A stretch of 64,000 nt of DNA from Pseudooceanicola pacificus (lineage in GTDB: Bacteria; Pseudomonadota; Alphaproteobacteria; Rhodobacterales; Rhodobacteraceae): contig NZ_WNXQ01000001.1 of assembly GCF_009789075.1 (NCBI RefSeq), positions 558,001 to 622,000 on the forward strand. The letters are read 5' to 3'. The position numbers were made by a program, and so were the translations under genes. The notes beneath the pieces were generated by a model. It was given only the letters and a program-made list of their open reading frames with translations, made no database searches and was not told the origin of the DNA. The stretch's first letter is position 1; every line of letters starts with the position of its first letter. Shown in pieces: positions 18,037-18,211 of this stretch.

Positions 18037-18211
18037 TGCAAGGCTGGTTTCCGGGCTTGCAGAGGGGCCTTGCGACCCGGACGCGACGCCTTCCCAGGGC
18101 TCCTCTTCCCCAGTGGCTGCTGCCGCGTCCTCCGCTCTGTCACCGTTGCGGGGGCAGCGCCGGGTTTGCACCGGCTTCCCAATTCTCGGACCCGGGGGCC
18201 CGCACCTTGCA
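18037..18211 (-). promoter_or_regulatory. Cobalamin (B12) riboswitch upstream of gbcAB
   Basis: Read on the minus strand. P1 forms between TGCAAGG (18205-18211) and CCTTGCA (18037-18043). The conserved core GCTGCCCCCGCAACGGTGA is at 18140-18158, preceded by GGGAAGCCGGTGCAAACCCGG. The B12 box AAGCCCGGAAACCAGCC is at 18042-18058 and fits the family consensus closely. Order, spacing and strand match the AdoCbl aptamer family. The next gene on this strand is gbcA. In known cases the ligand-bound form represses the downstream gene. Confidence 0.93.

Follow-up and report, generated by a model that had tools for sequence, protein, structure and literature searches.

A cobalamin riboswitch upstream of a probable betaine N-demethylase in Pseudooceanicola pacificus and its relatives: a candidate B12-dependent choice between two betaine routes

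What would a cobalamin riboswitch control when it stands in front of the genes of a Rieske oxygenase of the betaine demethylase type? metE and the nrd genes are members of a class of B12-independent isozymes which are under the control of cobalamin riboswitches. Sun et al. 2013 list "isozymes of B12-dependent enzymes" as a class of the cobalamin regulon (PMC3766115). The question is raised by a window (the whole stretch of DNA analysed, 64,000 nucleotides) from Pseudooceanicola pacificus, in which a preliminary description had noticed a cobalamin aptamer at 18037-18211, placed directly upstream of a gene that it called gbcA.

A covariance-model search of the window with RF00174 returned a single cobalamin riboswitch that exceeds the gathering score of 31.5 bits, located at 18025-18224 on the minus strand (E 6.7e-27). 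The aptamer noticed earlier lies inside this full-length match, whose score is far above what the proposed Infernal search with Rfam demanded. The features of the locus are, in the order of transcription:

18025..18224, minus strand: cobalamin riboswitch aptamer (RF00174), whole model 1-189, 110.8 bits
18148..18155, minus strand: L5 loop, C-rich, GCCCCCGC on the minus strand (from the leader sequence and the aptamer alignment)
18042..18057 (contig 576042-576057), minus strand: B12 box of the aptamer subtype, AGCCCGGAAACCAGCC, common to the switched leaders
18012..18024, minus strand: P13-like hairpin CCGC-GGGTG-GCGG, immediately 3' of the aptamer, helix paired in 99% of cells in 26 leaders
17916..17930, minus strand: GC hairpin GCCGC-GGGGC-GCGGC, directly adjoining the Shine-Dalgarno sequence and a putative expression platform (from the leader comparison)
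17910..17915, minus strand: Shine-Dalgarno-like GGGAGG (from the leader sequence)
16670..17899, minus strand: Rieske non-haem iron oxygenase subunit of 409 aa, GbcA/Stc2-like, probably of the group Vb betaine N-demethylase type (from Pfam, NCBIfam and alignment)
15595..16665, minus strand: NAD(P)H flavin/2Fe-2S reductase subunit, GbcB/Stc4-like (GbcB model 367.7 bits, cut-off 500)

The aptamer ends 125 nt before the ATG of the oxygenase gene, which is followed by the reductase gene and then by a convergent gene, so that no further minus-strand gene directly follows. A tRNA-Thr gene lies upstream of the riboswitch on the same strand. The genome of the window, whose completeness is rated 66.85%, contains three cobalamin riboswitches, among which the window copy has the top score; the remaining two precede genes which, as read by eye from the open reading frames, encode a CbtA-type transporter and a BtuF-type binding protein. 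In the following, oxygenase genes with a cobalamin riboswitch directly upstream are called switched and those without it unswitched. A five-part ABC transporter of the urea/branched-chain amino acid type and an alpha/beta hydrolase (window 9867-15585) are encoded convergently to the switched pair, and a similar transporter is likewise convergent in locus L036.

The arrangement is not restricted to this genome. Close homologues of the oxygenase (E <= 1e-120) amount to 30 proteins in 29 of the 149 family genomes, and 12 of the 30 genes carry the riboswitch directly upstream. In the best 80 named loci from a scan of a genome collection, model R1, whose alignment had one wrong-strand row (own_btuF) and whose RNAalifold structure has 17 pairs, placed a riboswitch directly upstream of the oxygenase in 22. 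Two of these, L104 and L117, share their contigs with L038 and L040, which are among the twelve; the other 20 were all passed by Rfam, 19 at 80.9-125.9 bits and L109, a degenerate copy with a partial model match, at 32.0 bits and thus barely over the gathering score. The recovery by R1 of 20 Rfam elements in 30 neighbourhoods is given by construction, since these elements are in its alignment, and for the other 58 named loci absence was called with R1 only. At least 32 distinct switched loci (12 family and 20 named) are thereby known, from Ruegeria, Shimia, Sulfitobacter, Phaeobacter, Leisingera, Pseudophaeobacter, Loktanella, Marivivens, Gemmobacter, Roseibium (labelled Stappiaceae) and others. 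The element, for which the preliminary description had proposed to search the upstream regions of relatives, is therefore recurrent, and in 31 of the 32 loci, among the matches listed, it lies 54-139 nt from the start codon.

A tree of 129 rows was calculated, which is a quick one without a mixture model and with long-branch warnings, and which omits L062, L191 and L196, whose frames are broken or partial, as well as the same-contig copies L104, L115, L117, L118 and L144. The gene of the window belongs to a group of 25, of which 22 are switched (support 89). A distant second group of 8 includes 6 switched genes (support 97), and 4 further switched rows are scattered. The switch label changes 10 times on this tree, compared with 28.8 times when labels are shuffled, and the clade of Sinorhizobium meliloti Stc2 contains no switched gene among its nine members. 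Some close relatives of switched genes are without the element, which together with the degenerate copy in L109 indicates that it can be lost.

The aptamers of the oxygenase leaders are of a subtype (GAATTGGGAA, AACGGT, CCGGAAACCAGCC) which is common to the 12 aptamers of the first alignment and differs from the riboswitches preceding nrd, metH or transport genes. The motif AGYCCGGAWACCAGCC, derived from the oxygenase leaders, was found at 21 places in the 149 genomes, and the motif written backwards, as a control, at 4. Twelve places are the 12 oxygenase leaders, 4 are same-subtype riboswitches that precede another gene and score 110-129 bits on R1, and 5 reach only 15-18.5 bits on R1. Members of this subtype with similar hairpins downstream are located at L265 7238-7431, L272 6876-7057, L267 1511-1713 and L266 6885-7065, all on the minus strand. 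They precede a small open reading frame of about 92-98 aa with RRGG conserved near the C-terminus, which sits, as judged by eye, just downstream of a UvrD-type helicase-like gene; neither of the two frames examined had a Pfam match.

Downstream of the aptamer two hairpins recur. CCGC-GGGYG-GCGG follows its 3' end in most leaders, and a GC hairpin whose loop contains or adjoins GGGG abuts the Shine-Dalgarno sequence 10-18 nt 5' of the start codon in 23 of the 32 leaders among the matches listed, each of these hairpins being the best pick out of several candidates per leader; the other 9 have no GGGG loop at this hairpin. An alignment of 26 leaders was made up of 22 of the 32 oxygenase leaders and 4 of another gene, with the hairpins of the second clade misaligned by MAFFT. 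The P13 and Shine-Dalgarno helices are paired in 95.1% of its cells (shuffles 93.6%). Pair changes on both sides occur in 4 cells compared with 0.6 in shuffles, at least three of the four coming from leaders of the other gene and not from oxygenase leaders, and the number of pair types is not raised (7 compared with 6.5 in shuffles). The leader hairpins are thus conserved, with little evidence of covariation. Folded over its full length to the energy minimum, the leader of the window does not show the proposed structure and has no greater stability than shuffles (z 0.20), and neither a terminator nor a promoter match was found in it.

As described in the consulted part of a review, binding of cobalamin forms a kissing loop between L5 and L13 which sequesters the Shine-Dalgarno sequence (PMC5282855). 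By analogy, and as base pairing between the C-rich L5 and the G-rich loops is possible, the leader likely acts as a translational off-switch; in the window it may be the L5 loop which kisses a G-rich loop downstream. One could also regard the riboswitch as a leftover which happens to neighbour the oxygenase gene and exerts no control over it, as the degenerate copy in L109 and the relatives without the element might suggest. However, at least 32 loci, the narrow range of distances to the start codon and the conserved leader hairpins all speak against such a chance neighbourhood, which is disfavoured by this conservation and hardly credible.

The identity of the oxygenase is less simple. It has the Rieske and the ring-hydroxylating catalytic Pfam domains, and on the NCBIfam GbcA model (NF058607) it scores 507.3 bits, below the cut-off of 670. 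Stc2 of S. meliloti, for which the product of the pSymA gene adjoining stc4 was taken, reaches 498.5 bits on the same model, which therefore cannot separate the two, and a naming of the gene by score was dropped. The position given in the preliminary description, directly upstream of the oxygenase gene and on its strand, was right; the name gbcA is not established. None of the 149 family genomes reaches the NF058607 cut-off, and the nine proteins above it came from 200 sampled genomes of the phylum. The oxygenase is 66.2% identical to Stc2 and 44.1-48.4% identical to the six of these nine that were compared. It is 73.3% identical to a protein of Ruegeria TM1040, and its best PDB match is 3n0q, which we take to be the product of that Ruegeria locus.

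According to a structural study of CntA (PMC7948474), an Asn in place of Tyr203 of CntA marks group Vb, whose members N-demethylate glycine betaine and proline betaine. The oxygenase of the window has N196 at this position, the Cys pair C199/C202, the Rieske ligands C83/H85/C103/H106, and H201/H206 and D356, the last of which is assigned as an Fe ligand by us. The seven metal ligands are kept in 129 of 129 rows and the Asn in 128 of 129. All features of group Vb (Asn for the aromatic residue, Cys pair, Rieske and Fe ligands) are hence present, from which the protein is probably of the betaine N-demethylase type, with glycine betaine as a candidate substrate. It does not group with Stc2, as it falls into another clade and no LysR or FMN-oxidoreductase-type gene was picked next to it. 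Related oxygenases on the plasmid records L235, L237 and L238 are labelled just "aromatic ring-hydroxylating dioxygenase subunit alpha", and a label of this kind hides the likely betaine role of such proteins.

If the oxygenase is a B12-independent isozyme, a B12-dependent counterpart is expected in the same genomes. The consulted part of Mausz et al. 2025 reports, on the evidence of proteomics and mutants, that MtgC and MtgD are required for the demethylation of glycine betaine in Ruegeria pomeroyi, that these two proteins belong to a cobalamin-dependent system with MtgB, and that they also serve methionine synthesis (PMC12478193). GbcAB is named there as the alternative by oxygenation, found in genomes that have MetH but lack MtgBCDE, with no link drawn to a riboswitch; the sole riboswitch in the main text is the glycine one of SAR11, in the title of a reference.

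MtgB-type genes (PF06253) were found in all 12 switched family genomes, in 15 of the 17 with only unswitched genes and in 142 of 149 overall. MtgC-type genes (PF02607, told apart from the MetH type by score and frame length) are present in 11 of the 12 and in 14 of the 17, the switched genome without a match being G118, which is 84% complete. With such frequencies in the other genomes the co-occurrence is weak evidence. As strong evidence we dropped the presence of PF06253, carried by 142 of 149 genomes, that of MtgC-type genes, which 14 of the 17 unswitched genomes have as well, the copy number of PF06253 (Mann-Whitney p 0.017, uncorrected for kinship) and the absence of MetH (MetH in 4 of 12 switched and 11 of 17 unswitched genomes, Fisher p 0.14). 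In the genome of the window MtgC-type, DUF1638 and MtgE-type genes lie within 5 kb; the MtgC-type protein has MtgC as its best NCBIfam match (192.7 bits, cut-off 370), and the MtgE-type protein scores 612 bits on the betaine-homocysteine methyltransferase model (cut-off 338). The sole MttB/MtgB-type gene found in this genome is located at L264 7224-10639 on the minus strand, with HNOB (haem-NO-binding) and GGDEF genes behind it.

The oxygenase and the MtgB/C-type genes thus coexist, as an isozyme switch requires, the substrate match of the MtgB-type proteins being putative. This coexistence runs against the impression that GbcAB accompanies the absence of MtgBCDE, and it fails to separate switched from unswitched genomes. 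The preliminary description had offered two readings, of which the first, a B12-independent route shut off when a corrinoid route works, is the better supported; the gene counts are consistent with it and not decisive, the partner genes being common in unswitched genomes too.

The reading which we favour, with somewhat better than even confidence, is that a B12 riboswitch shuts off an oxygen-dependent, B12-independent betaine demethylase that is an alternative to MtgBCD. With ample cobalamin, the bound leader would block translation of the O2-dependent betaine N-demethylase, and betaine methyl groups would be removed via MtgB, MtgC and MtgD to methyl-tetrahydrofolate. When cobalamin is scarce, the corrinoid betaine route, which would compete with methionine synthesis for the common corrinoid protein MtgC, would fail. 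The aptamer would then be empty, the hairpin at the ribosome site unlocked, and the oxygenase and reductase made, which would release the methyl group as formaldehyde using O2 and NAD(P)H without B12.

The same switch logic may serve another substrate, such as proline betaine or another quaternary amine, with another MtgB-type methyltransferase as partner. The higher identity to Stc2 than to the GbcA proteins, the like behaviour of both proteins on the GbcA model and the 1-9 copies of PF06253 per switched genome point in this direction, and in Eubacterium proline betaine and other amines are the substrates of such paralogues, as stated in the consulted part of PMC12478193. An FMN-oxidoreductase-type gene is typical of N-methylproline demethylation. 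Among the matches listed, the cluster of such genes is found near none of the 32 switched genes compared with 29 of 77 other copies (Fisher 7.6e-6), and that of LysR-type genes near none of 32 compared with 39 of 77 (Fisher 2.8e-8), P values which ignore kinship. A kinship-aware test of the switch against these two neighbours had 7 usable pairs, on average less than one of them informative, and thus no power. The lack of both genes near switched copies, which may be mere kinship, and the Stc2 clade of nine without a switch nevertheless argue against another substrate, which we consider rather unlikely, the minority case.

All neighbour counts are undercounts, because the simple picker of open reading frames found the oxygenase itself in just 30 of 32 and 74 of 77 loci and the stretches are of unequal length. 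Within these bounds class Ib nrdF, which belongs to the B12-independent ribonucleotide reductase and speaks for the favoured reading, is near 6 of the 32 switched genes (L039, L053, L095, L099, L103 and L108) compared with 1 of the 77 others (p 0.0025, among the matches listed). The nrd genes stand behind a cobalamin riboswitch of their own in L039, L053, L099 and L108, and also in L057, where the fetched stretch contains only nrdHI and a cut nrdE-type frame. A second cobalamin riboswitch in L095 (5347-5547, minus strand) points away from the switched oxygenase to a frame of 275 aa.

In two loci a split metH adjoins the switched pair. It follows the pair on the same strand in L057, whereas in L039 a cobalamin riboswitch at 10049-10250 on the plus strand lies about 540 bp upstream of the split B12-dependent metH (10787-14570) on the same strand. 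A metH behind a cobalamin riboswitch is unexpected for an off-switch. The metH of L057 would escape if control were translational and confined to the oxygenase; L039 is not accounted for in this way.

A MetE of canonical size was found in none of the 12 switched genomes, 10 having no match to a MetE domain and 2 short or weak ones, so that a shortage of B12 should hit methionine. These facts, together with the adjoining metH, would also suit a bypass in C1 metabolism: methyl-tetrahydrofolate would accumulate when B12-dependent methionine synthase stalls, and the oxygenase would avoid this methyl-folate trap, as formaldehyde enters C1 metabolism above methyl-tetrahydrofolate. But this proposal, premise and bypass taken together, overlaps with the favoured explanation and makes few separate predictions, and we regard it as improbable.

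The second reading of the preliminary description tied betaine to corrinoid synthesis. Low B12 would turn on the breakdown of betaine to supply glycine and methyl groups for the synthesis of B12. Betaine feeding raises the B12 yield, by methyl donation and a stimulated supply of 5-aminolevulinate, according to the consulted parts of PMC8123684 and PMC5282855; B12 synthesis is a main class of the cobalamin regulon in that of PMC3766115; and CbiC, taken as one marker of corrin synthesis, was matched in 9 of the 12 switched genomes. No CbiC was found in G026 and G114, both 100% complete and switched, nor in the incomplete genome of the window, whose transcription unit is moreover not followed by a cobalamin-synthesis gene. 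As genomes that do not synthesize B12 should not keep a switch for precursor supply, the two complete ones weaken this reading, and we give it little credence, less than the C1 bypass.

Within the favoured explanation, the switch may spare corrinoid for methionine: at low cobalamin betaine would be moved to the oxygen-dependent demethylase, and methylcobalamin would be left for methionine. This is a tentative reading, for which the odds seem to us a little below even. It is drawn from the sharing of MtgC by both tasks in R. pomeroyi and from the 8 of 12 switched genomes which have an MtgC-type gene without a MetH-type match, two of the eight being incomplete. If it is true, MetE and the non-B12 ribonucleotide reductase would be joined by the oxygenase as a third class of B12-independent isozyme, and the supply of B12 would set the route by which marine bacteria use a major ocean osmolyte.

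The RNA family and the regulatory logic are those of the known cobalamin riboswitches of B12-independent isozymes, and several loci lie near nrdHIEF genes behind riboswitches of their own. What differs is the Rieske betaine-type target, the subtype of the aptamer (AACGGT, CCGGAAACCAGCC) and the hairpin that mostly abuts the Shine-Dalgarno sequence. With the MtgBCD(E) system of R. pomeroyi, as far as described in the consulted part of PMC12478193, the locus shares the class of substrate and the relatedness of the organisms, and the window's genome has MtgC-type, DUF1638 and MtgE-type genes; however, Mtg proteins transfer methyl groups to a corrinoid, whereas the pair described here would act by oxygenation. 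GbcAB of Pseudomonas and Chromohalobacter is likewise a two-component Rieske oxygenase and reductase with the active-site pattern of group Vb, but the identity to above-cut-off GbcA proteins is only 44-48% and both subunits score under the NCBIfam cut-offs. The stachydrine demethylase Stc2/Stc4 of S. meliloti has the same gene order and 66% identity in the oxygenase, in contrast to its divergent LysR-type gene, such a gene being picked near none of the 32 switched copies among the matches listed, and its clade without a switch.

The target appears to be new to us. No Rieske betaine-type demethylase under a cobalamin riboswitch was found in the consulted parts of the open-access literature, and subscription papers or regulon databases may hold one; the main text of Sun et al. 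2013 contains neither betaine nor a Rieske term (PMC3766115), and the consulted parts of PMC8123684, PMC5282855 and PMC5948670 do not name such a target. This agrees with the earlier remark that GbcAB is not a known riboswitch target.

Demethylation of betaine in the sea was recently tied to B12, as the consulted part of PMC12478193 reports, and betaine is a major marine osmolyte and carbon source. With the element described here, the idea that B12 governs the choice between two betaine routes can be put to a direct test. If our reading is true, it would give a function to oxygenases which are now annotated only as aromatic ring-hydroxylating dioxygenases. If B12 decides the route in roseobacters, the supply of this vitamin would control the fate of the methyl groups (methyl-folate or formaldehyde), the demand for oxygen and the supply of methionine.
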